From the NCBI RefSeq assembly GCF_900115225.1, contig NZ_FOVR01000006.1, forward strand, positions 1 to 64,000: a stretch of DNA of 64,000 nucleotides, written 5' to 3'. The position numbers were made by a program, and so were the translations under genes. Shown here in pieces: positions 33,317 to 45,476 of this stretch. How positions within the stretch are numbered: position 1 is the stretch's first letter; each line of letters starts with the position of its first letter. The DNA is from Cohaesibacter marisflavi. Its GTDB lineage: Bacteria; Pseudomonadota; Alphaproteobacteria; Rhizobiales; Cohaesibacteraceae. The notes under the pieces are model-generated. The model did no database searches and was not told the origin of the DNA. It saw only the letters and a list, made by a program, of their open reading frames with translations.

Positions 33317-33790
33317 TCAGTCCTCCAATTTGGCGGTCAGGTGGCCCCAAACCGCGCGCAATGCGAAATAGCCAAGGGCAATCCCGCTGAAGGGGATGAC
33401 CAGATAAACGAGATACATGGGCAAATCCAACGCCGGACTGCGTTGGTTCATGCCGAATTTCATCAGGGCAATGCCGCCAAAGAACAAGGAAATCGCCAGA
33501 ATGAAGATGAAGGATGTATTGATGACTGCAAGCACCCGGCGCGGGGCGGGAGACAGAATATCGGAGAGAATATCGAGCGCGACATGCGCACCCGAGCGAA
33601 AGGCCGCCGCCAGACCGAGAAAGGAAATCCAGACGAAGACATACCGTCCGACTTCTTCAGACCAGCTCAGAGAATGATGCATCAGATAGCGTGCAACGAC
33701 CTGCGTGAAGGTAAGGCCCATCATGACGAACATGAGGCTTGCTATGGTCCAGAGCAGCGTTCGGTGAATAAATGTGTCTAGCTTTTCCAT
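33317..33790 (-). CDS. TRAP small permease, DctQ family (tetronate locus)
   Basis: 157 residues, four hydrophobic segments, DctQ block SWSEEVGRYVFVWISFLGLA. The ATG at 33790 sits behind GGCGGAGGAGCC; the longer frame to 33838 has no ribosome site. It lies between the DctP and DctM genes in the usual P-Q-M order. Confidence 0.9.
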   Translation of the reverse strand: MEKLDTFIHRTLLWTIASLMFVMMGLTFTQVVARYLMHHSLSWSEEVGRYVFVWISFLGLAAAFRSGAHVALDILSDILSPAPRRVLAVINTSFIFILAISLFFGGIALMKFGMNQRSPALDLPMYLVYLVIPFSGIALGYFALRAVWGHLTAKLED

Positions 33791-33917
33791 GATGGCTCCT
33801 CCGCCGTCTTTCAAATCGTGGAAAATGGGCCACCGCACTGGTTCTTCAGGCCGCAGAGGAGCAAATGCTCGATCAGCAAAAAGGATGCAGCGCGATGGCG
33901 AGGATCAGATCCGACTA

Positions 33918-34922
33918 TTACCGGCCCAGGGTTTTCTGGATGCGATTATAGAGGTCGAGATTGACGTCCTTGGCAAAAGCTTCATGGGCTTTTGTCGCCG
34001 CAGCCGCAATCGGACCGTTATCAGGATGGGTAACCTGCAGACCACCATCGACCATTTCCTGCAGGAGTTTTTCAGCCTGCTCGCTAACAGCCTTGTTTTC
34101 TGCTTCGGTTGCAGCGGCGGCAGCTTCGGTGACGATTTTCTGCTGTTCTTCTGTCAGCTGCTGCCAGCGGACATTGCTCATCGCGATAGTGACATACTCA
34201 TATTTGTGATCGGTGAAGGCGATATATTTCTGCACTTCGTTGATGCGACCACCATAGATGAACGGGATCGGGTTTTCCTGAGCTTCAATCACATTCTGCT
34301 CGAGACCGGTATAAACCTCACTCCAGGCCATTGGCGTCGGGTTGGCGCCAATTTCACGCCAGGTCGTGACCATGGCAGGAATTTCAGGCACACGGATCTT
34401 CAGCCCTTGCAGATCTTCCAGGCCGTTGATCGGCTTGTTGGAGGTCACTTCACGCGGGCCGCGATCCCACCAATTCAGGATGCGGATATTGGCTTGATCC
34501 AGCACATTCTGAGCGATCTCACCACCGATTTCACCATGAATAACGGTATTGAACTCATCTTGTGAGTGAAACAGATAGGGCAATTCGAGCAACTGGATTG
34601 AGCGTTCGAAGTTGCCAAGCACACCAGCAATCAGGCCAAAATCAACCGTGCCCATCTGCATGCCTTCAACCAGATCACGGTCACCACCCAACGTGGAGTT
34701 GGGATAGATAGCCAATGTGATCTTACCATCGGAACGGGCTTCAAGCTCTTCCTTGAATTTCTCGGCGCCAAAGTGCCACAGGTCTTTCTCAGACTGGATA
34801 TGGCCCAGCTTCAGTGTGAGCACGTCATCAGCGCGGCTTTGCCCGGGAACACCCAGAGTTACCAGTGCTGCGAGGGCACAAAAGGCCAGTGGCTTTGAAG
34901 CCAGAGACAATAGACTCTTCAT
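33918..34922 (-). CDS. TRAP substrate-binding protein, DctP family (tetronate locus)
   Basis: 334 residues; signal peptide to about residue 32 (LASKPLAFCALAALVTLG ... SRADD), periplasmic. Family blocks LAIYPNSTLGGDRDLVEGMQ, PREVTSNKPI, LQGLKIRVPEIPA (carboxylate-binding Arg), PTPMAWSEVYTGLEQNVIEA and QENPIPFI. The ATG at 34922 is preceded by GGGAGGAAGTTTGA and begins the signal peptide. By context it binds a four-carbon sugar acid such as threonate or erythronate; the ligand is not proven by sequence. Confidence 0.92.
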   Translation of the reverse strand: MKSLLSLASKPLAFCALAALVTLGVPGQSRADDVLTLKLGHIQSEKDLWHFGAEKFKEELEARSDGKITLAIYPNSTLGGDRDLVEGMQMGTVDFGLIAGVLGNFERSIQLLELPYLFHSQDEFNTVIHGEIGGEIAQNVLDQANIRILNWWDRGPREVTSNKPINGLEDLQGLKIRVPEIPAMVTTWREIGANPTPMAWSEVYTGLEQNVIEAQENPIPFIYGGRINEVQKYIAFTDHKYEYVTIAMSNVRWQQLTEEQQKIVTEAAAAATEAENKAVSEQAEKLLQEMVDGGLQVTHPDNGPIAAAATKAHEAFAKDVNLDLYNRIQKTLGR

Positions 34923-34990
34923 TTTCAAACTTCCTCCCGAAGTCAGATTGTCATTTACAGGGTTAAATCTTCTCTCGATCAACGTCCGCC

Positions 34991-36010
34991 TCAAAAGGTC
35001 ACAACAACCTTGATGACGTCCTCTTTTTTCTGATTGAGGATGTCCAGCGCCTCCTGCGTTTGATCAAGCGGAAGCCTTTGCGTGACAAAGGCAGACAGAT
35101 CGACACCGCCATTGACCATTTCGGCCGCCTTCACAAAGTCACATGTTTCATAAGTCATGGCACCGTAAACGGTTTGTTCGTTGAAAACGGTGCTGTAGCA
35201 ATAGAAGGGGATCGGTTTGGTGATCATAGCCACCAGTCCGATTTCACCACGACGGCGCGTGCATGCAGAAGCCTGATCCAGAATATTCGGGGCTCCGGCG
35301 CAGACAAGCGTCAGATCAGCGCCGCGGCCATCAGTCAATTTCTTGACATTCCCCTCCACATCATCCTTCAAGGGATCATAGGAAACGATAGCACCCTGCC
35401 TGAGTGACATTTCGCGGTTGAACGGAGCCGTATCAGTCGTGATAATCTTCTTGAAGCCCATTTCACGTGCAGCAACCACGCACAGCATGCCGATGGTTCC
35501 TGTGCCCAGAATGACCACGCAATCTCGGCTTTTCATACTAGCGCGGGCCAGCGCATGCACAGCTACGGCGAGCGGTTCGGTCAACGACCCGATTTCATAG
35601 GTAACCGAATCCTCAAGCTTGAAAACGGTCTCCTCGGGCGCATTGAAATATTCAACGAATGTGCCGATCCAGTTTGGCGTGCCAGGGACTTTCTTGTTCA
35701 GGCACAGATTAACCAGATCCTGCTTGCAGAACTCACATTCTCCGCAGCCAACCTGAGGCAAAACCGTTACGCGATCGCCCTCTTTGAATTTGGTAACCTT
35801 GGAGCCAACCTTGACGACATCGCCAGCCACTTCATGGCCGAGCACTGCCGGCGGCTTGCGAAAGGCGTGTGTCCCTTTGAACAGATGTAGGTCGGAGCCG
35901 CATACTCCGGCAACCTTCACCTTGATCAGGACATCATCATCCTTGAGTTCAGGCTCCGGCACGTCCTGGATTTCGACTGTCTCGGTATCGACGACCAATG
36001 CTGCTTTCAT
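34991..36010 (-). CDS. Zinc-dependent MDR dehydrogenase heading the tetronate operon
   Basis: 339 residues. Catalytic zinc ligands Cys37, His59, Glu60 (GVCGSD; GHEV); structural zinc cysteines 89, 92, 95 and 103; Rossmann GTGTIG. Same zinc spacing as the enzyme at 10305-11327 but clearly diverged. It is first in the operon. The known threonate route uses a different dehydrogenase family plus an isomerase (OtnI), neither of which is here; this enzyme may oxidise the sugar acid directly to the 3-oxo form. Start ATG at 36010 with AAGGAGAATTTTC ahead. Confidence 0.85.
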   Translation of the reverse strand: MKAALVVDTETVEIQDVPEPELKDDDVLIKVKVAGVCGSDLHLFKGTHAFRKPPAVLGHEVAGDVVKVGSKVTKFKEGDRVTVLPQVGCGECEFCKQDLVNLCLNKKVPGTPNWIGTFVEYFNAPEETVFKLEDSVTYEIGSLTEPLAVAVHALARASMKSRDCVVILGTGTIGMLCVVAAREMGFKKIITTDTAPFNREMSLRQGAIVSYDPLKDDVEGNVKKLTDGRGADLTLVCAGAPNILDQASACTRRRGEIGLVAMITKPIPFYCYSTVFNEQTVYGAMTYETCDFVKAAEMVNGGVDLSAFVTQRLPLDQTQEALDILNQKKEDVIKVVVTF

Positions 36011-36485
36011 GAAAATTCTCCTTAACGACAAGATTGTGCAAGCCGGGTGCAGAGATCGAAATGCGCTGCTGAGATCTCTGCACCCTTAGGAGGGAAGGAC
36101 TATTTTGACACGAGGGGAGCTGTCACATGACCGAGCGGTCACATGTTGGTTCCTCCCTGTATCTATATGCATAAGGCCATTGGACACAGCGCTGCCTTCA
36201 GGCAAATGAGCACTGTCGAGCATGTACCATTCGTGGAAACACTTTAGCCATCAGAGACTTAAGATCATGACCCTGCAAACCGACTGGGTTTGGGAAGCAG
36301 AGCCAATTCCTCCTGATCCGTTCATCTCGCAACAGCGTTTTGCATATCTTCACACATACTATCAATTTTTCACAGCTTGACAATCAGTATATTCTCATAA
36401 TTTTACATTTGTTTTCACTTTTTAACACACCCAATGTAATTGCTCGCATAAATCCGTCTTTTGCCGCCAACGCAACGGCAACAAA
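36011..36485. other. Intergenic region upstream of the tetronate operon
   Basis: About 475 bp without a credible gene, containing the tetronate operon promoter on the minus strand. Besides the repeats at 36122-36145 I see only AT-rich sequence, around 36330-36440. Confidence 0.5.
36122..36145. promoter_or_regulatory. Candidate operator with direct and inverted repeats
   Basis: GTCACATG occurs twice, 16 bp apart (36122-36129 and 36138-36145), and TGACC-gagc-GGTCA forms an inverted repeat between them. It lies 112 bp upstream of the tetronate operon's first gene; the DeoR protein encoded at the operon's end is the likeliest binder. Confidence 0.35.
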
Positions 36486-36514
36486 AAAGGCTGGAGGACT
36501 TGCCTCCAGCCTTT
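36486..36514 (-). terminator. Rho-independent terminator of the binding-protein operon
   Basis: AAAGGCTGGAGG and CCTCCAGCCTTT form a perfect 12-bp stem with a 5-nt loop, 24 bp past the stop of the Liv-type binding-protein gene; on the minus strand the stem is followed by TTTTTTGTTGC. A textbook terminator for the minus-strand arm of the divergent ABC locus. Confidence 0.88.
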
Positions 36515-36538: not shown

Positions 36539-37801
36539 TTACTGGTTTGCTTTGGCCTTGATCTCGGCCACTTCATCAGCCTGCATCATGCCGGTGGTTT
36601 CAATGGTCCCGTCAGCAATCTTCCAGAGACGGAACGGCCCGGTGATATCGCCATACTGGTCAAATCCGACCGGTCCAATCACACCTTCATAGCGAATTTT
36701 CTCGCCCTTCTTGATCAGGTCCAGAGCTTTCTTGAATTCTTCCGGACCAGCATAGATCGGCGTACCTTCAGTGCCAGTGACGTCAAAGATAGCATCTCGA
36801 ATCTTGTCTGCCTTTGCTTCGCCAGCCTTGGCAATGGCAAGACCGACAATCGCTCCCGCATCATAGGAGCGGTCTGCAGCAGGTGCATCTGGAGCAATGC
36901 CGCCGGAGAAGTCTGCAAAATTATCGTAGAAATATTTGGTCGAAGCAGTCTCATCCGTACCAGAGGAGGTGCCATAGGCTTCATTGAGATATTGAGCGCC
37001 GACAGCCTTGATGAAGTCGGATGAGTTCATGCCATCGTTGAGCAGGAATTTCTGCGGGCCACCATTGGAAATCCAAGCGCGAGCAATCGTGGCACCATCA
37101 ACCGGATAGCTGACTAGATAGAGTGCTTCGGGCTCACCGGAAAGCGCCGCGGTGGCTTCGGAAGAATAGTTGGCCTGCTTTTCGTTATACGGGGTTACCG
37201 AGGTGATTTCACCACCAAGTGCTTTGAAGGTGGCGGAGAATTCGCGCATCATGTTGACGCCGAAGTCATTGTTGACGTGAATGATGGCGAGCTTTTTAAG
37301 GCCCTGATCAATGGCATATTGCGCGGCTGCCGTGCCCTGTAGCGCATCAGAGGTGATCGTGCGGAAGAAATAGCCACCTGTCTTTCCTTCCTTGCCCAGC
37401 TGGGTGAGCGTCGGAGAAGATGAGGCCGGAGAGACCTGAACCACCTTCGCAGGGGCTGTTACGGAAGTAAGGATCGGCAGGGAAACCGAGGAGATGATGC
37501 CACCGATAACCACCGGCACATGCTTGATATTGACCAGCTGCGTTGCCTGATCCACGGCCACGTTGCCCTGGCTCTGGCTATCGCGCGTATCAGCTGTCAG
37601 GGTGCAGCCCAAAACGCCGCCCGCTTCGTTGATGTCCTTGAAGGCCATCTCAACGGCCTTTGCGCCAGCCTGCCCATAGACACCGGCCGGGCCTGTCAAT
37701 TCCATGACCATACCGACTTCAACATCGCACGCCACGGCAGGTGCCATGCATGCTCCAAGCCCCGCCAGAACGGCCAACGGTGCTAAATATGATTTCTTCA
37801 T
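36539..37801 (-). CDS. ABC transporter substrate-binding protein, branched-chain amino acid (LivJ) type
   Basis: 420 residues; signal peptide to about residue 24 (LAVLAGLGACMAPAVACD), periplasmic. Type I periplasmic-binding fold: VGMVMELTGPAGVYGQAGAK, RDSQSQGNVAVDQATQLVN, QVSPASSSPTL and YDAGAIVGLAIAKAGE. This family binds amino acids, amides, urea and aromatic acids, so the ligand is not evident. Its membrane and ATPase subunits are the livGFHM genes at 40209-43670 on the opposite strand. ATG at 37801 follows CAGGAGTG. Last gene of the GntR-TIGR04076-AKR-SBP arm. Confidence 0.9.
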   Translation of the reverse strand: MKKSYLAPLAVLAGLGACMAPAVACDVEVGMVMELTGPAGVYGQAGAKAVEMAFKDINEAGGVLGCTLTADTRDSQSQGNVAVDQATQLVNIKHVPVVIGGIISSVSLPILTSVTAPAKVVQVSPASSSPTLTQLGKEGKTGGYFFRTITSDALQGTAAAQYAIDQGLKKLAIIHVNNDFGVNMMREFSATFKALGGEITSVTPYNEKQANYSSEATAALSGEPEALYLVSYPVDGATIARAWISNGGPQKFLLNDGMNSSDFIKAVGAQYLNEAYGTSSGTDETASTKYFYDNFADFSGGIAPDAPAADRSYDAGAIVGLAIAKAGEAKADKIRDAIFDVTGTEGTPIYAGPEEFKKALDLIKKGEKIRYEGVIGPVGFDQYGDITGPFRLWKIADGTIETTGMMQADEVAEIKAKANQ

Positions 37802-37856
37802 TTTACACTCCTGTAGGAAGGGGCCCATCTCGGGCCTGTTTGGCGAAGGCTTAAGC

Positions 37857-38909
37857 CTATTCTTTATTGAGATTATATTTCATGATGGATCCGTGCCGAC
37901 CAAACCGATCGCGCTCGAGGCTATAGACATCTCCCTCAAGCGGTGTCGACTGAGATAGGATGGTGTCAATGGCGGCCATATCATCGGGCGTTAGCGTCAC
38001 CGCACCGATGCCCAGATTGGCAGCTAGATGGCTGCGATTGCGCGCGCCAACAATCACGCCAGCAACGGCGGGCCTTGCCAGAATAGCGGCAGAGGCGATG
38101 GTCGAGATGTCCGTGTCATGCCGGTCAGCAATGGTCCGCAGGGACTGCAACAGCGATTGGAAAAGATCCCAGCCACCGAAGTCCTCGATGATCAGTTTGT
38201 ATTTGATCAGGGACCGGTTCTCCAAATCACCTTCTGGTTCAGCCACGCCAAGCCAACGGTCCGAAAGGAATCCGCCTGCAACCGTGCCATAGCAGAGAAA
38301 ATGAAAATCATGCTCGGTCGCAAGCGCGGCCATGCGTTTTTCGGGCCGATGATCGAGCAGGGAATATTGTAGCTGTATCGTGGTCAGCGGCAATCCATCA
38401 GCCTTCATGCTTGCAACATGGTCACTATCGAAATTGGTGCAGCTGAGGAACCGCAAGCGGCCCTCCTGCTGAAATTCGTGGAGCCAATGCATCGTCTGCA
38501 GCCAATCGCCCTGCTCATAATCCCACCAGTGAAACTGCACTAGGTCAAGACGCTCCACACCCAGACGGGCACGCGAACGGTCAATGGTTTCCTGCAGCAG
38601 CGGGCGGGTAAGACGGGAGAGCTTGTCCAGATCCGGCACGCATTTGGTATGGACATGAATGGCATCCAACGCCTCGGAACCGTGCTTGTCTGCATAGGCT
38701 TTGCGGAAGGCGCCGATGATTTCCTCGACACCGGTATAGATATCGGCGCAGTCGAAGGTGGTGATTCCCGCTTCAGCGGTTGCAATCAGGTCTTCAACAG
38801 CCGCTTTCTTGTCGATCGCCCCATGCCCGCCGGCCAATTGCCATCCGCCGCGGATCACGCGCGAAATGGCATAGTCAGGGGCCAGACTGAATTTTGGAAG
38901 GGTCGTCAT
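37857..38909 (-). CDS. Aldo/keto reductase (stand-alone paralogue)
   Basis: 350 residues, NADPH-type AKR barrel. Active-site blocks: FDCADIYTGVEEIIG (Asp, Tyr), HTKCVPD (Lys) and VQFHWWDYEQGDW (His), then FLSCTNFDSDHV and VAGVIVGARN at the cofactor site. It shares QFHWW, CTNF/VTNF, GGWDxFQSLL and KYK segments with the AKR half of the fusion protein at 43663-45126, so the two are paralogues at opposite ends of this locus. The longest frame starts at 39047, inside the TIGR04076 gene; ATG at 38909 is the family start, 1 bp after that gene's stop. Confidence 0.88.
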   Translation of the reverse strand: MTTLPKFSLAPDYAISRVIRGGWQLAGGHGAIDKKAAVEDLIATAEAGITTFDCADIYTGVEEIIGAFRKAYADKHGSEALDAIHVHTKCVPDLDKLSRLTRPLLQETIDRSRARLGVERLDLVQFHWWDYEQGDWLQTMHWLHEFQQEGRLRFLSCTNFDSDHVASMKADGLPLTTIQLQYSLLDHRPEKRMAALATEHDFHFLCYGTVAGGFLSDRWLGVAEPEGDLENRSLIKYKLIIEDFGGWDLFQSLLQSLRTIADRHDTDISTIASAAILARPAVAGVIVGARNRSHLAANLGIGAVTLTPDDMAAIDTILSQSTPLEGDVYSLERDRFGRHGSIMKYNLNKE

Positions 38910-38910
38910 T

Positions 38911-39270
38911 TCAGGTCTCACTTTCTGGTGCCGTATCCGCTGCAAGCGGAACAGCCGTTGTTTCGGCATGACTGAATGTGCGCTTGCGGATGCGCGTGAT
39001 GCGAAAGCGCGTGCTGCAATTGGGATCAGGACAGGCGACTTCGGCATCGGTGCTCATCCAGTCATTGGGGTGCGTGTCCCGCTGCTTGGCAGGCAAAAGC
39101 GGCAGAAGGGCCGCCAGCGAATAGATAGAAAAGCCCTGCCCCGGAGGCATATGGATCATCTCACCGCGCAGCTCGAAATAGTCGCCAACCTTGGCACCGC
39201 AATAAATCGGCCCGCCTTCCGGCGCTATAACCTCCACCCTGAGATCCCATAATTCGAAGCTGTCACTCAT
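38911..39270 (-). CDS. TIGR04076 family protein
   Basis: 119 residues. DLRVEVIAPEG, KVGDYFELRGEMIHMP and FSIYSLAALLPLLPAKQR fit the TIGR04076 family of small cytoplasmic proteins of unknown function, often encoded beside reductases and catabolic genes. Four Cys (YCGAK; VACPDPNCS) include a CPDPNC pair that could bind metal. It overlaps the end of the GntR gene by 8 bp and precedes the aldo/keto reductase by 1 bp, indicating tight operon coupling. No function is assigned. Confidence 0.8.
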   Translation of the reverse strand: MSDSFELWDLRVEVIAPEGGPIYCGAKVGDYFELRGEMIHMPPGQGFSIYSLAALLPLLPAKQRDTHPNDWMSTDAEVACPDPNCSTRFRITRIRKRTFSHAETTAVPLAADTAPESET

Positions 39271-40000
39271 CAGTTGTTCCCTCGACGATATCCTGACGCA
39301 GCAGATTGAAGGATTGGGTTATATCGGAATGCAACGCCTTCACCGCAGCTCCGGCATCTCCTTCGGCCAGCGCATCAATCAAAGCCCAATGATGATGCAC
39401 CGCAGTCATCGAAGGCTTGCGACCATAGACAAGCGCCGAGGCCCGAACAAATGGGCCCGATTGCATCCAGAGGCTGCGCACGATGGGCAACAGCACGTCC
39501 GACCCTGCCATGCCATAGATGGTGAAATGAAACTGATAATTTAGCCCGGAAGTGACGCTGACCTGTTCATCATCAAGCGGCTTTTCAAAGGCAGCCTCGC
39601 AAGCTGCTGTCATGTCGCGCAGGCTCTTGATCGTGGCTTTATCGGTCTTGGGTGTGGCCAGTCGCACCAACTCGCCTTCGATCAGGCAGCGAACACGGGC
39701 GAGATCCTCAAGCCGCTCTGCAGTGATCAGCGGCACACGGGTCGAGCGGTTCGGCATCATTTCCAACGCTTGGTCGGAGACCAAACGCGCCAGCGCTTCT
39801 CGCACGGGCATAATGGACACCTGCAAGGTGTCAGCCAGCGCCTGCATGCGCAACACCTGACCGGCGGCGAAGACCCCATGCATCAGCGATTTGGCCAGCT
39901 CTTGATATACCCGCTCCTGTAAGGACTCCCGCGCAACGGACCCCAGCCCAGGGATGGCCTTTGCATCGACAGTCTGATCTGCCTTCAGCATGTTCTTCAT
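39263..40000 (-). CDS. GntR-family transcriptional regulator (FCD type)
   Basis: 245 residues from ATG 40000. Winged helix at about 30-95: LQERVYQELAKSLMHGVFAA, QALADTLQVSIMPVREALAR and NRSTRVPLITAERL. FCD domain after it (VRCLIEGELVRLATPK, NYQFHFTIYGMAGSD, HHHWALIDALAEGD). The frame is open to 40222, but that would overlap the divergent livG gene and lacks a ribosome site. It is the first gene of its arm and faces livG across a 208-bp gap carrying a 16-bp perfect palindrome, so it probably controls both arms. Confidence 0.87.
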   Translation of the reverse strand: MKNMLKADQTVDAKAIPGLGSVARESLQERVYQELAKSLMHGVFAAGQVLRMQALADTLQVSIMPVREALARLVSDQALEMMPNRSTRVPLITAERLEDLARVRCLIEGELVRLATPKTDKATIKSLRDMTAACEAAFEKPLDDEQVSVTSGLNYQFHFTIYGMAGSDVLLPIVRSLWMQSGPFVRASALVYGRKPSMTAVHHHWALIDALAEGDAGAAVKALHSDITQSFNLLRQDIVEGTTDE

Positions 40001-40104
40001 CGTTCGCTCGTCACTCCCGCCATCAGCAACCCGTTTACCACCAGCCTTGATGGATTTTCTGTTTCTCTCTCTTTTTTTGCTTGCAAATGCAACTTGTGTC
40101 AATA

Positions 40105-40120
40105 ATCTTTGATCAAAGAT
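40105..40120. promoter_or_regulatory. 16-bp perfect palindrome in the divergent promoter region
   Basis: ATCTTTGATCAAAGAT is an exact inverted repeat 105 bp upstream of the GntR start and 89 bp upstream of livG. Position and symmetry suggest an operator for the adjacent GntR regulator controlling both transcripts. The flanks are AT-rich, consistent with promoters. Confidence 0.6.
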
Positions 40121-40208
40121 ATAAGATATAAATCTGTCTGAAGCGCACCGAGCAATGACCCAACGGGCAGTATAGAAAGAAGCAGATCCGCAAGAATCTG
40201 GGGATTGA

Positions 40209-41027
40209 ATGACGCAGACCATGGAAGGCCCGCAAGGTCCGATCGAAACCGACCCGGCAAAAACGGAGGCGATTCTGTCTGCCCGGTCGCTAACGCGTAG
40301 TTTTCAGGGCTTCAAGGCAGTGGATGATTTATCCCTAGATCTCCATCAGGGAGAGATTCTGGGGCTCATCGGCCCCAATGGCGCGGGCAAGACCACCATG
40401 TTCAACATGCTGGCCGGGTCCCTACTCCCAAGTTCCGGCTCCATTCTGCTTGATGGTAAGGACATCAGCCGCGAAGGAGCCGAAAAACGATTAAGGCGCG
40501 GACTTGGTAGGACCTTTCAGATCCCCCGCCCTTTCCCCGAGATGACCGTCCTTGAAAATGTGCTCTGCGGCGCGCAAGGCCAATCTGGCGAACGTGCCAT
40601 CAGCGCCTTTTTCCGCCCGGGCAAAAGTCGCCAAGATGAAGCCCGCGCTCTTGAAAAGGCGCGTCACCTTACCGATTTCCTGATGCTCTCCCATCTGGAG
40701 AATGAAAAGGCCCGAGTGCTTTCCGGCGGGCAGCGCAAACTGCTCGAGCTGGCACGCATCCTGATGGCCGATCCAAAGGTCATCTTGCTTGATGAACCGG
40801 CAGCGGGGGTCAATCCGACCCTACTGCAAGAAATCATGGCCCGCATCGTCACTCTTAACGAGCAGGGCGTATCGATCCTGCTGATCGAGCATAATATGGA
40901 TATGGTGGCGCGGCTTTGTTCTCGCGTGATGGTAATGGCGCTGGGCCAGAAGCTGGCAGAAGGCGCCCCCAACGCGGTCATTCGCGATCCCGAGGTCGTG
41001 CGCGCTTATCTGGGGGATGCGGCATGA
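40209..41027 (+). CDS. livG: ABC transporter ATP-binding protein, LivG type
   Basis: 272 residues. Walker A GPNGAGKTT, a LivG-type GLGRTFQIPRPFPEMTVLEN Q-loop region, signature LSGGQRKLLELARILM and Walker B VILLDEPAAG, with the switch His in LLIEHNMDM. One of two ATPases of a branched-chain-type importer. Its stop overlaps the livF start (ATGA). An extended N-terminus (about 25 residues before the ABC core) is present. The symbol denotes family, not a proven substrate. Confidence 0.9.
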   Translation: MTQTMEGPQGPIETDPAKTEAILSARSLTRSFQGFKAVDDLSLDLHQGEILGLIGPNGAGKTTMFNMLAGSLLPSSGSILLDGKDISREGAEKRLRRGLGRTFQIPRPFPEMTVLENVLCGAQGQSGERAISAFFRPGKSRQDEARALEKARHLTDFLMLSHLENEKARVLSGGQRKLLELARILMADPKVILLDEPAAGVNPTLLQEIMARIVTLNEQGVSILLIEHNMDMVARLCSRVMVMALGQKLAEGAPNAVIRDPEVVRAYLGDAA

Positions 41028-41764
41028 CGAAAGACATCCTGACGTTACACAATCTGCATGCGGGCTATCAACCCGATCTGCCCATTATCAACGGCATCGA
41101 CCTGACGGTGCAGCAGGGCGAATTCGTGGTTCTGCTTGGCCCCAATGGCGCAGGCAAGTCGACCCTTGTAAAGGCGGTTGCTGGCTTGGTGCCCATCCAT
41201 TCGGGAATGGTACTACTCAAAGAAGAGAATATCACTCACCTGCCTGCGCATCTGAAGCTGCATAGCGGTATGACCTTCGTGCCGCAAACCGAGAATATCT
41301 TCACTCAGATGAGCATCCGCGAAAATCTTCAGATCTCGGCGCAAATCCTGCCCAAGCAGCTCCGCGCCGAGCGTATTGAAGCCATGTTCGCCATGTTCCC
41401 CGATCTGGCCAAACGTCCTTCAACGCGCGCAGGGGCTCTGTCCGGCGGACAACGTCAGATGCTGGCCGTGGCCCGCGCCCTCATCACAGATCCGGCCCTG
41501 CTCATCCTTGATGAACCATCCGCAGGTCTGTCGCCCCTCTTGGTCGACGAGGTCTTTGCCCGCATCAAGATGATCAACGAAACCGGCGTTACCATTCTTC
41601 TAGTCGAGCAAAATGTCCGCGTCGGATTGCAAGTGGCTTCCCGCGGCGTCATCCTCGTGGAAGGAAAGGTGGCCCATGATGCTCCTTCCGCCGATCTGTC
41701 TGGCGATCCGGTGGTCACAGAGCTTTATCTTGGTGGCGGCGGTGTCGAGGAGACAGCCCAATGA
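41024..41764 (+). CDS. livF: ABC transporter ATP-binding protein, LivF type
   Basis: 246 residues. Walker A GPNGAGKST, LivF-type FVPQTENIFTQMSIRENLQ, signature LSGGQRQMLAVARALI and Walker B LLILDEPSAGLSP; switch His replaced by the LivF-typical Gln in LLVEQNVR. Start ATG overlaps the livG stop; its own stop overlaps the livH start (ATGA), so livG-F-H-M are translationally coupled. Confidence 0.9.
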   Translation: MTKDILTLHNLHAGYQPDLPIINGIDLTVQQGEFVVLLGPNGAGKSTLVKAVAGLVPIHSGMVLLKEENITHLPAHLKLHSGMTFVPQTENIFTQMSIRENLQISAQILPKQLRAERIEAMFAMFPDLAKRPSTRAGALSGGQRQMLAVARALITDPALLILDEPSAGLSPLLVDEVFARIKMINETGVTILLVEQNVRVGLQVASRGVILVEGKVAHDAPSADLSGDPVVTELYLGGGGVEETAQ

Positions 41765-42675
41765 CCTTGCAACCCATCATGGATGGCCTCGTGAATGGCT
41801 CGATCATCGGTCTTGGAGCCATTGGCGTCACCCTAACCTATTCCATTCTGCGCTTTGCCAACTTCGCGCATGGCGAAATGCTGTCATGGGGCGCCTATCT
41901 GGCCCTTACCGTAAGCGCGGCCCTGGGCGCACTGCTGCCCGGCCTTGGCACCCCGATTGGCCCCTTTTCCTTCGGCTGGTCGGTGCCCATAGCCATGATC
42001 ACCTCCATGGTTCTGACTGGTCTCGTTGCCCTCACGGTAGACTGGCTGCTCTTTGGCCGCCTGCGCAAGGCAGGGTCAGCCCAGATCATTCTGGTGATGT
42101 CGTCCTTCGGGGCCGCGCTGGCGCTACGCAATCTGCTGGAATTCATCTATACCTCCAGTCCGGCCTATTTCACCAATGCGCTGCAGATCTCGCGCCCCAT
42201 CCTGCCCGGCCTCAGAGCAACACCTGACCAGCTGCTGGTCCTGGTGCTCGCCGTTATCATGGTGGTTGCGGTGCATCTGCTCCTCACGAAATCGGCGGCA
42301 GGGCGTTCCATGCGGGCCGTTTCGGAAAACCCGGATCTCGCCAGCCTTGCAGGCATCGACACCCGTGCCGTCATTCGCATGGTCTGGATGCTGGGGGCTG
42401 CGCTCGCTGCCGTTGGCGGCATCATGTCCGGCGTTGTGGTGCAGATACGCCCCACCATGGGCCTTGACCTGCTGCTTCCCCTCTTTGCCGCCTCCATTCT
42501 GGGCGGCATAGGCTCGGTGCCCGGTGCCATGATCGCCGGACTGATGGTCGGGCTTGCCGAAGCTTTCACGGTGCAGATCATTGGTGCGGAATGGAGGGCT
42601 GCGGTGTCCTTTGTCATCCTCGTCGCCATGCTTTTATTGCGCCCTCAGGGCATTTTCGGAAAGGCTGCGGCATGA
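41761..42675 (+). CDS. livH: ABC transporter permease, LivH type
   Basis: 304 residues, about eight hydrophobic segments. LivH hallmarks: NGSIIGLGAIGVTLTYSILR and FANFAHGEMLSWGAY near the N-terminus, MRAVSENPDLASLAGID (coupling loop) and LPLFAASILGGIGSVPGAMI. Forms the channel with LivM; the stop overlaps the livM start. Confidence 0.9.
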   Translation: MTLQPIMDGLVNGSIIGLGAIGVTLTYSILRFANFAHGEMLSWGAYLALTVSAALGALLPGLGTPIGPFSFGWSVPIAMITSMVLTGLVALTVDWLLFGRLRKAGSAQIILVMSSFGAALALRNLLEFIYTSSPAYFTNALQISRPILPGLRATPDQLLVLVLAVIMVVAVHLLLTKSAAGRSMRAVSENPDLASLAGIDTRAVIRMVWMLGAALAAVGGIMSGVVVQIRPTMGLDLLLPLFAASILGGIGSVPGAMIAGLMVGLAEAFTVQIIGAEWRAAVSFVILVAMLLLRPQGIFGKAAA

Positions 42676-43670
42676 TCGACCTTCTTTCCTACGGCGCCTT
42701 CTTCCTCACCATGGCCTTGACCTATGCAGTCATCTGCCTTGGCCTCAATCTGCAATGGGGTCAGACCGGCCTCTTCAATGTTGGCGTCGCGGGCTTTGTG
42801 GCTGTCGGGGCCTATGTATCCTCCATCCTGACGACCCCAGCCATCGACGGACGACTGGGCGGCTTCGATCTGCCAATCGTCATCGGTTGGCTTGGTGGCG
42901 GGTTGGGGGCTGGCATCCTTTGCTTTTTGCTGGGAGCTCTCACTTTGCGTCTGCGGGCGGATTATCTCGCCATCGCCACCTTCGGTGCTGCGGTGGTGAT
43001 CCAGCTGACACTACTCAATCTGGAAGGCATCACCGGTGGGCCGTTCGGCATCGGCTTCATTCCTCGCCCTTTCGGGGGACTGGCAGAGAATCCCAGCCTG
43101 TTTGCCATCGCCAATCTGGGCGTACTGATCCTTCTGGTTCTGGTCAGCTATTTCGCTCTGCAACGCCTGACGCGCTCCCCTTGGGGCCGGGTACTGCGTG
43201 CCTTGCGCGAAGATGAAGAGGCAGCCAAGGCTCTGGGTAAAGATCCGGTCACCTATCGTTTGCAGGCCTTTGCCATCGGCGGCTTTATCATGGGGCTTGG
43301 CGGCGCGGCACAGGCCCATTTCATCGGCTTCATCGCACCGGACAACTACATGCCCACCTTGACCTTTCAGGTTTGGACCATGCTGATTGTCGGCGGCTCG
43401 GGCAACATGCGCGGGGCCATTCTTGGTGCTGTGCTGGTCTGGGCCATCTGGGCCCTATCCGGAAGCCTCGTTGCCAGCGTCTTCCCGCCAGATCAGCAGG
43501 CCCGCGCGGCATCCCTGCAAATCGTCCTCATCGGCGTTGCCCTCTGCCTCGTGCTGCTGCTACGCCCCTATGGCATTCTGGGCGAGGCTGGCACCGTGCG
43601 CGCACCCTTGCGGCGCGCCCTTCGCCGCGATTTAAATTCTCACTCTGAAGGACAAAAGACAGATGTCTGA
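42672..43670 (+). CDS. livM: ABC transporter permease, LivM type
   Basis: 332 residues, about nine hydrophobic segments. LivM hallmarks: YAVICLGLNLQWGQTGLFNV, RLRADYLAIATFGAAVVIQ, ITGGPFGIGFIPRPF, RVLRALREDEEAAKALGKDP (coupling helix) and MLIVGGSGNMRGAILGAV. Longest frame starts inside livH; ATG at 42672 overlaps the livH stop. The next gene (AKR-Rid fusion) begins 8 bp before its stop, making the enzyme part of the transporter operon. Confidence 0.9.
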   Translation: MIDLLSYGAFFLTMALTYAVICLGLNLQWGQTGLFNVGVAGFVAVGAYVSSILTTPAIDGRLGGFDLPIVIGWLGGGLGAGILCFLLGALTLRLRADYLAIATFGAAVVIQLTLLNLEGITGGPFGIGFIPRPFGGLAENPSLFAIANLGVLILLVLVSYFALQRLTRSPWGRVLRALREDEEAAKALGKDPVTYRLQAFAIGGFIMGLGGAAQAHFIGFIAPDNYMPTLTFQVWTMLIVGGSGNMRGAILGAVLVWAIWALSGSLVASVFPPDQQARAASLQIVLIGVALCLVLLLRPYGILGEAGTVRAPLRRALRRDLNSHSEGQKTDV

Positions 43671-45126
43671 CACACCTGATCGTATCGATCTCGCCCCCGG
43701 GCTCAATATTTCCCGCCTTGTTTGTGGTTTGTGGCAGGTTGCCGATCTGGAAAAGGACGGAGACCTGCTGGACCCGCAAGAAACGGCTCCGCGCCTTACT
43801 GCCTATGCCGAAGCCGGATTTGACAGCTTCGACATGGCCGACCATTACGGCTCGGCCGAGCTGATCACCGGAACCTTACTGGCAAACAGCCCCAAGGACA
43901 CGCCGATCCGCGCCTTTACCAAATGGTGCCCGGAACCTGGCCCCATGACACCGGAAATCGTTCGCGCCGGTGTACAGGAACGCCTTGACCGCCTCGGTGT
44001 CGATGCGGTTGATCTGTTGCAGTTCCACTGGTGGAGCTTTGAAGATCCGCGCTGGCTAGACGCCATGCACGAGATGGAGAAACTGCGCGATGAAGGCCTC
44101 ATCAAAGCCATCGGCGTCACCAATTTCGATGCGGCCCATTTGGCACTGGCGCTTGAGGAAGGCATCAAAATCGTCTCCAATCAGGTCAGCTTCTCGCTGG
44201 TTGACCGTCGTGCTGCCGGTCCCCTCTCAGCCCTTTGCGCCAAATATGGCATCAAGCTGCTGGCCTATGGCACCCTTTGCGGCGGCTTCATCTCCGAGAA
44301 TTGGCTGGGCAAACCCGAGCCGCAGGAGATCGCCGACTGGAGCCGCATGAAATACAAGCGCTTCATTGATACCGCCGGCGGTTGGGATGCGTTCCAGTCG
44401 CTGCTATCTACCGCCCACACCATCGCTGAAAAGCACGGCGTTTCGCTTTCCAACGTCGCTAGCCGCTGGGTGCTGGAACATCCGGCAGTCGGAGCGACCA
44501 TCATCGGCGCGCGCATCACCGAAGCCGAGCATCGTGCCAGCAACCTCAATGTCTTTAAATTTGCCCTAGATGATGAAGATCACGCAGCGCTGGACGCCGC
44601 CTTTGCCCAGATGTCTGCTGTTCCCGGTGACTGCGGCGACGAATATCGCAAGCCCCCCTTCCTGACCGCATCGGGCGATCTTTCCCACCATCTCTCTTCG
44701 ATTGCACCGGTCAATCCGGCCGTGGCAGACCCCAGCCTTGCCGATCGCTCCCGTGTCTTCTCCGGCTCCAAGTGGGAACCGCTGGCTGGCTATTGTCGCG
44801 CCGTCCGCGTTGGTAACCGCATTCTCGTTTCAGGCACCACGGCAACCCATGGCTCCGACCATGCCGTTGCGCCAAATGATGCCGGGGCACAGGCAACCTA
44901 TATTCTCGACAAGATCATCGGAGCCATTCGTGCCCATGGCGCTGGTCCGGAACATGTCGTGCGCACGCGCATCTATCTGGTCGATGTGGAAGATTGTGAA
45001 GCGGTATCTATTGCTCATGGTCGCTTCTTTTCCGACACTTGCCCGGCCAACACCCTGTTGCAGGTGGCAAAACTCGTCGGCCCCTATCGCGTAGAAATCG
45101 AAGCTGAAGCCGTGCTGCCGTCATAA
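43663..45126 (+). CDS. Aldo/keto reductase fused to a Rid (YjgF/YER057c) domain
   Basis: 487 residues, far longer than a single AKR. Residues 1 to about 335 are an AKR barrel with the tetrad Asp57, Tyr62, Lys87 and the His of LLQFHWWSF. Residues about 365-487 are a Rid trimer-type domain (YCRAVRVGNRILVSGTTATH, HVVRTRIYLVDVEDCEAV, YRVEIEAEAVLPS). Where RidA has its imine-deaminase Arg (FPARS), this protein has CPANT (Asn463), so classical deamination is doubtful. It may channel an oxidised or reduced imine or carbonyl between two active sites. Overlaps livM by 8 bp, so its substrate is probably what the Liv-type system imports. Confidence 0.9.
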   Translation: MSDTPDRIDLAPGLNISRLVCGLWQVADLEKDGDLLDPQETAPRLTAYAEAGFDSFDMADHYGSAELITGTLLANSPKDTPIRAFTKWCPEPGPMTPEIVRAGVQERLDRLGVDAVDLLQFHWWSFEDPRWLDAMHEMEKLRDEGLIKAIGVTNFDAAHLALALEEGIKIVSNQVSFSLVDRRAAGPLSALCAKYGIKLLAYGTLCGGFISENWLGKPEPQEIADWSRMKYKRFIDTAGGWDAFQSLLSTAHTIAEKHGVSLSNVASRWVLEHPAVGATIIGARITEAEHRASNLNVFKFALDDEDHAALDAAFAQMSAVPGDCGDEYRKPPFLTASGDLSHHLSSIAPVNPAVADPSLADRSRVFSGSKWEPLAGYCRAVRVGNRILVSGTTATHGSDHAVAPNDAGAQATYILDKIIGAIRAHGAGPEHVVRTRIYLVDVEDCEAVSIAHGRFFSDTCPANTLLQVAKLVGPYRVEIEAEAVLPS

Positions 45127-45149
45127 CAAGAGCCTTGTGCTTTTACGAT

Positions 45150-45180
45150 AAAGGCCTCGGGCAAAGCGCCTGAGGTCTTT
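45150..45180 (+). terminator. Terminator of the liv-AKR-Rid operon
   Basis: AAAGGCCTCGGGC pairs with GCGCCTGAGGTCTTT (two G-U wobbles), followed by GCTGTTTTT, 23 bp after the AKR-Rid stop. The remaining 45181-45476 has no gene that I can support; it carries the leader of the BrkB gene. Confidence 0.75.
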
Positions 45181-45476
45181 GCTGTTTTTGGGGACATTTG
45201 GCAGAACAGCGGATCAAGAAACGAAAAACGAGGCTTCCAGCAGCAGCCCTCTTCGTTCTAGCAACCATCATTGAACTGCGGTCTCCCTAGCCATCATACA
45301 GTTTACGCACGGATATGCGCTTCCGATAAAATTGGGAACCAAATGCAATATTCGCCATTGAATATAAGTAGCCCATAATCCAACATGGAAGCCAGCCTTT
45401 CGGGCCTATCTTTGACAGAGTGTCTGGCCGTTCACGTCCTGCCACAAGCATAATGATGTTGAGGAAATAGCAAGAA

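Follow-up and report, generated by a model that had tools for sequence, protein, structure and literature searches.

A conserved divergent locus of Cohaesibacter marisflavi that joins a Liv-type importer to two aldo/keto reductases and a TIGR04076 protein

Layout of the two arms

The window analysed here, a 64,000-nucleotide stretch of the genome of Cohaesibacter marisflavi, carries between positions 36539 and 45126 nine genes in two divergent arms that lie back to back. The minus arm runs from a GntR-family regulator through a TIGR04076-family protein and an aldo/keto reductase (AKR1) to a periplasmic binding protein, and the plus arm (40209-45126) runs livG-livF-livH-livM and ends in a fusion of a second aldo/keto reductase with a Rid domain (AKR::Rid, the reductase part of which is termed AKR2). 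Each label has Pfam or NCBIfam support. A first-pass annotation had listed these nine genes, their families and a perfect 16-bp palindrome, all of which are present as described, and had the arms facing each other, which is incorrect. The features are as follows.

36486-36514, minus strand: probable minus-arm terminator, with a perfect 12-bp stem, a 5-base loop and a T-rich tail (read from the sequence; unflagged by the hairpin scan)
36539-37801, minus strand: periplasmic binding protein, 420 amino acids, type I, HAAT class
37857-38909, minus strand: AKR1, aldo/keto reductase with D53/Y58/K89/H127 and an HWW motif (PF00248)
38911-39270, minus strand: TIGR04076-family protein, 119 amino acids, with C24, C80 and C85 (69.8 bits, above the NCBIfam cut-off of 33)
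39263-40000, minus strand: GntR-family regulator with an FCD domain (PF00392 and PF07729)
40105-40120, no strand: palindrome ATCTTTGATCAAAGAT, presumed to serve both arms as the operator of the GntR regulator
40209-41027, plus strand: LivG-type ATPase (Pfam, NCBIfam)
41024-41764, plus strand: LivF-type ATPase (Pfam, NCBIfam)
41761-42675, plus strand: LivH-type permease (PF02653)
42672-43670, plus strand: LivM-type permease (PF02653)
43663-45126, plus strand: AKR::Rid fusion, 487 amino acids (PF00248 and PF01042)
45149-45181, plus strand: terminator-like hairpin 3' of AKR::Rid (hairpin scan)

The mechanical open reading frames are over-long for the binding protein, AKR1, GntR, LivF and LivM, for which we took the starts as 37801, 38909, 40000, 41024 and 42672, a choice that fits the relatives. 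The hairpin scan gave 11 terminator-like hairpins in the region against a shuffle mean of 8.1, and such hairpins are thus not rarer in shuffles. The overlaps of 4 to 8 bp previously described for both arms exist at five of the seven junctions, namely LivG/LivF, LivF/LivH and LivH/LivM (4 bp each) and LivM/AKR::Rid and GntR/TIGR04076 (8 bp each), but not at TIGR04076/AKR1 (1 bp apart) or AKR1/binding protein (55 bp apart). In the same way, the two reductases are indeed related (36% identity between AKR1 and AKR2), but they do not occupy opposite ends of the locus, as AKR1 is third in its arm and the binding protein is last.

Conservation of the gene set and of the divergent gap

With each species represented by one genome, a scan returned at least 592 pattern matches, at least 555 of them confirmed, and the locus counts given here rest on the best 80, in which genes were placed by tblastn. 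The gene order of the window is kept in 56 of the 80, some with extra genes, and 14 show a second layout or variants of it, in which binding protein-livMHFG-AKR1-TIGR04076 points away from AKR::Rid, with or without GntR (among the variants, L162, at a contig end, is without the binding protein, L166 carries an additional AKR fragment and L171 has AKR::Rid on the other side). The other 10 are partial, mostly truncated by contig ends. Among the 66 loci longer than 20 kb, LivG, LivF, LivH and LivM are each present in all 66, the binding protein, AKR1 and the TIGR04076 protein in 64 each, and GntR in 61. Spacing is also conserved: counting only pairs between -60 and 400 bp, GntR and TIGR04076 lie within 25 bp in 69 of 69, LivF and LivH overlap in 102 of 103, and LivM and AKR2 lie within 25 bp in 65 of 66.

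AKR::Rid is present in a single copy in this genome, where its next-best match is AKR1 (39%). Within the class it has a match at E 1e-30 or better in 17 of 289 genomes (this one included), full-length in 8, and 26 plasmid records hold a match, 17 of them with coverage of at least 80%. Nine of 12 annotated regions have the window's order (livM is missing from the Phyllobacterium gene table, and a DUF4440 gene is added in two); Pannonibacter has the second layout, Microvirga a rearranged one and Antarctobacter AKR::Rid alone. The first-pass annotation would have lost its basis had the gene set been confined to this genome; the neighbourhood comparison, with the order kept in 56 loci, does not bear this out, and the view of the two arms as one functional unit is upheld to the extent that the locus has the appearance of a single unit conserved far beyond this genome. 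No description of the operon was found in the open-access literature searched, which agrees with the earlier statement that no characterised pathway with this set was known.

The gap between GntR and livG is 208 bp long and contains the palindrome. The core TTGATCAA occurs, once each, in 55 of 57 such gaps, those of the 56 loci in window order plus the window itself (200 mononucleotide shuffles gave a mean of 0.1 and a maximum of 2). A 16-bp palindrome of one kind or another, with no more than one mismatch, is present in 44 of the 57 (100 shuffles: mean 4.8, maximum 10), common forms being AAGTTTGATCAAACAT, ATCTTTGATCAAAGAT and ATAGTTGATCAACTTT; a few of these 44 gaps hold a different, G+C-rich one. 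The core is absent from 14 TIGR04076/AKR::Rid gaps (12 of the second layout and those of the partial loci L151 and L174) and from L198-L202, and this genome has no further palindrome site with 0 or 1 mismatch. By sequence the GntR protein has the helix-turn-helix and FCD domains of its family, and from its place and symmetry the palindrome looks like the conserved operator of this protein. Because the order is kept in so many loci, the core in nearly all gaps, and no second near-match site is present in the genome, we regard the arrangement of the locus as more than chance.

Some further observations were made along the way. Locus L141 (NZ_VCCH02000005.1), in a record titled Mycobacterium sp. 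KBS0706, is an alphaproteobacterial cassette like those of Inquilinus, and the genome is perhaps mislabelled. A small protein lies between AKR1 and the binding protein in L045, L047, L142, L198-L202 and others, with a tblastn match in 22 loci; two plasmid records annotate it as DUF4440, the copy in L047 matches Pfam S6PP_C, and none was seen in the window. On the minus strand of the window, 33317-36031 reads, from the translations, like a separate uptake operon in which a TRAP-type small permease and a binding protein lie beside a zinc-type alcohol dehydrogenase.

The reductases, the Rid domain and the TIGR04076 protein

The fusion consists of an AKR part (about 1-325), a conserved linker PGDCGDEYRKPPFLTASGDLSHHL and the Rid domain (about 360-487), and its AKR part shares the HWW motif with AKR1. 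The catalytic D/Y/K/H tetrad is intact in all 102 AKR::Rid rows. In AKR1 the Asp, Tyr and Lys are likewise kept in 102 of 102, and the His is kept in 76 and lost in 26; it is present in all 49 readable rows of the window's layout (window included), 49 being the number of AKR1 rows available for 57 loci. In a tree of 76 rows, with some long branches flagged, AKR2 forms one group (100/99) and AKR1 another (92/93), and the fusion therefore looks like a single event. In this tree the window's AKR2 groups with Pseudooceanicola and Alloyangia (100/99) and Hoeflea with Pseudorhodobacter (100/97), placements which, together with the plasmid locations, suggest horizontal transfer.

The catalytic tetrad is shared with PF00248 reductases such as IolS (1pyf), DepB (8hwn) and flagellar radial spoke protein 5 (7jtk), but the matches in the Protein Data Bank (PDB) are distant, and the cassette enzymes differ in their HWW motif and in that one is fused to Rid and the other stands beside TIGR04076. 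That IolS and 2,5-diketogluconate reductases are among the solved relatives would fit a sugar-type substrate, with the AKRs serving as dehydrogenases of aldoses or of sugar conjugates such as glycated or C-glycosyl amino acids, as would single neighbours such as sugar phosphate isomerases in Phyllobacterium and a mannitol dehydrogenase with an FGGY kinase in Pannonibacter. However, HAAT-class importers are not typical sugar importers, and no sugar-specific cluster was recognised among the multi-genus flank clusters, which were judged by eye from sequence starts and are mostly unannotated; of the alternatives weighed in this report, we give this one the least credence.

The Rid domain belongs to PF01042 (5.7e-20) and, like the RidA and RutC deaminases of that family, retains a Glu near its C-terminus (102-row alignment). 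It differs from them in being attached to an AKR, in scoring below the NCBIfam cut-offs for RidA-type proteins (53.5 of 106.25 bits) and RutC (TIGR03610; 36.2 of 169.1 bits) and, above all, in the position of RidA Arg105, which by alignment to E. coli 1qu9 is N463 in the window and is Asn in 102 of 102 fusions. According to the portions of the sources consulted, Arg105 is required for imine hydrolysis (PMC4433059), the Rid4-7 groups, without that arginine, showed no deaminase activity (PMC4433059, PMC8113886), and RutC likewise acts within a catabolic operon (PMC8113886). Because the needed arginine is replaced in every copy, the Rid domain is no evidence for imine hydrolysis. The first-pass annotation had argued from Rid and the AKRs to a nitrogen-containing ligand processed in its carbonyl or imine form; the Rid step of that argument fails, whereas a nitrogen ligand is still favoured on other grounds, themselves indirect, namely a DAO-family replacement of the fusion and an acidic residue of the binding protein (see below).

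In the TIGR04076 protein C24, C80 and C85 are invariant in alignments of 63 and 56 rows, which suggests a metal site, and its model (pLDDT 90) gave no Foldseek match at E 0.001 or better. A match to the family is present in 23 of 385 class genomes, 21 of them above the cut-off, and an AKR1-like gene adjoins it at 21 of the 23 over-cut-off places (this genome included; not in G285 or G015). In a sample of the phylum it occurs in 16 of 398 genomes (14 above the cut-off), and of 13 stretches from this sample, 10 (L196-L205) join TIGR04076, AKR1 and Liv, and L206-L208 show no such set, though the match in L206 is above the cut-off. Beside the pair the transporter is Liv at 13 of the 23 class places, and elsewhere a dipeptide-type ABC (by reading; L090, L091), a TRAP DctM (L083) or an MFS protein (L086), with none recognised at the remainder. 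Hence the TIGR04076-AKR pair looks like a stable chemical core for which the importer is exchanged. In the open-access literature searched, TIGR04076 was seen only as a table row, in the consulted part of a source on Bilophila microcompartments.

The importer, the neighbouring genes and the imported compound

The importer is of the Liv/HAAT ABC class, with two ATPases, two permeases and a type I binding protein, the model of which has the standard fold and is closest to the leucine/branched-chain binding proteins 3td9 and 4gnr. Such a class assignment for all five parts is what would be expected if the ABC transporter simply took up branched-chain or general amino acids, with the AKRs as aldehyde-detoxifying passengers. 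We consider this improbable, as the NCBIfam cut-offs for E. coli-type proteins are missed widely (LivG 223.3 of 362, LivF 177.5 of 441, LivH 129.5 of 379, LivM 120.5 of 366 and the binding protein 81.2 of 477 bits), the importer is accompanied by the enzymes in 64 of the 66 long loci and co-varies with them, and the locus has a dedicated conserved palindrome. Unlike the E. coli LivJ/K-HMGF system, moreover, this importer shares its locus with a pair of AKRs, a TIGR04076 protein and a GntR gene.

In the binding protein, Ser104/105 and Asp256 align where, as we take it, leucine-binding proteins hold the carboxylate and the amine. When 49 binding proteins are split at 55% identity to that of the window, Asp256 is present in all 29 window-type proteins, and the 20 distant rows have Asn (15), Gln (4) or Leu (1). 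Among the 87 of 98 binding-protein rows (window included) that could be paired, 11 loci having given no AKR1 row, Asp256 goes with the AKR1 tetrad His in 65 of 65, and another residue goes with Tyr, Phe or Cys in 19 of 22 (the exceptions are L074-L076). This pattern appears to link AKR1 to the imported ligand, though through few events.

Genes that replace or join parts of the cassette offer further clues. A DAO-family flavoprotein takes the place of AKR::Rid 3' of livM in five of seven fetched genomes of the genus g280 (L198-L202), in which the rest of the cassette (regulator, TIGR04076, AKR1 and importer) is alike in kind and the binding protein shows 70-74% identity; the other two (L196, L197) have AKR::Rid, L196 with a further DAO match about 5 kb beyond the cassette, and the cassette of L084 ends in a DAO gene. 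The DAO family includes members that do not act on amines. Four loci (L079, L082, L088 and L093) combine Liv, the binding protein, AKR1, a further HWW-type AKR, TIGR04076, a stand-alone Rid and HyuAB, in L079 and L082 also with DAO, and the best scores for HyuA and HyuB from L079 are those with the caprolactamase subunits CapA and CapB, below the cut-off. They represent a further orphan catabolic cluster in their own right.

These four loci could also be read as the full form of a lactam or hydantoin system with an ATP-dependent, hydantoinase/caprolactamase-like HyuAB, of which the cassette is a reduced form, and the resemblance of HyuAB to CapAB of the caprolactam pathway of Pseudomonas jessenii (PMC8453981, PMC6061476, each consulted in part) adds to this. 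We put it a shade below the simple amino acid importer, since neither the window cassette, which also lacks CapAB-like genes, nor the conserved core of AKR::Rid loci includes a hydantoinase, and the binding proteins of the four loci are 37-38% identical to that of the window, with Gln at position 256. Taken together, the DAO replacement, the HyuAB/Rid loci and the acidic binding-protein residue favour, indirectly, a nitrogen-containing ligand.

Other neighbours are those of aromatic amino acid breakdown. Kynureninase (KynU) and tryptophan 2,3-dioxygenase (TDO) lie between livM and AKR::Rid, inside the operon, at 7843-9932 in L160, L172 and L173 (Aurantimonas, Fulvimarina and Aureimonas), both adjoin the cassette in L121, L132 and L203 (the KynU of L203 being cut by the end of the stretch), and KynU is also present in L080, L088 and L093. 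IorAB-like genes, so named by us on the basis of their sequence and of Pfam POR and TPP domains, lie 3' of AKR::Rid in L125, L156, L161 and L163, with IorA-like matches in L088 and L093. Among 51 genomes searched, namely this one and 50 of the 80 locus genomes, hand-picked rather than random and with all five positives kept, TDO was found in 39 and kynureninase in 35. TDO falls within the fetched cassette flanks in 5 of the 39 against about 0.09 expected under uniform placement, a contrast that is flattered, since the five positives amount to about three lineages among hand-picked genomes, and that can serve only as a guide. With low confidence, an aromatic amino compound of the tryptophan, kynurenine or 2-aminobenzoyl type would be the likeliest class of ligand.

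We propose, at a little under even confidence, that the locus is a self-contained and regulated cassette for the uptake and redox conversion of a compound that resembles an amino acid and is possibly aromatic. The GntR/FCD regulator would occupy the TTGATCAA palindrome and keep both arms repressed, and binding of the imported compound, or of something made from it, would relieve this. Judging from its pocket residues, the binding protein would capture, for entry through LivHMGF, a compound of amino-acid type that bears a carboxylate and, in the present subtype, also a cationic amine. AKR1, together with the three-cysteine TIGR04076 protein, and AKR::Rid could then catalyse a series of NAD(P)H-linked carbonyl/alcohol conversions, and the Rid domain, probably no RidA-type imine deaminase in the absence of Arg105, may instead bind or tautomerise an intermediate from its own AKR. 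In its mode of working the cassette would resemble other catabolic operons linked to an ABC transporter; its set of enzymes is unusual.

Several observations, besides the flattered TDO figure, weigh against this proposal. L108 and L116 have full flanks yet the plus arm only, Antarctobacter has AKR::Rid without the cassette, and the co-variation of binding protein and AKR1 follows clades, so that it represents few independent events. The 2-aminobenzoyl-CoA type of kynurenine cluster, which neighbours the cassette elsewhere, has no full counterpart here: the genome of the window (assembly 98.5% complete) gave no TDO or kynureninase match and, for the salicylyl/aminobenzoyl-CoA-type enzyme, only partial matches to the flavin-oxidoreductase half. 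The aromatic reading therefore cannot rest on the kynurenine pathway in this genome. In addition, among 20 loci in which TDO lies apart from the cassette, eight have both LivG- and LivF-like matches and three have matches to all four Liv proteins, which means that Liv importers are common near TDO and that the aromatic link may therefore concern the importer alone; none of the 20 has an AKR1, AKR2 or TIGR04076 match.

A bolder version of the proposal, which we consider rather doubtful, is that the cassette represents a new alphaproteobacterial catabolic route in which the AKR1-TIGR04076 pair and a bifunctional AKR::Rid with an Asn-type, non-deaminase Rid act, through chemistry new to both families, on an aromatic or heterocyclic amino compound after its import, with TIGR04076 as a metal-binding partner of HWW-type AKRs generally. 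That alphaproteobacteria of many genera, from soil, roots and the sea, keep the operon, some of them on plasmids, points to a common environmental compound, though the literature searched showed none linked to it. Three questions come together in this one locus, namely what the TIGR04076 family does, what a Rid domain does when the catalytic arginine is missing, and which ligand this widespread HAAT-type binding protein takes.

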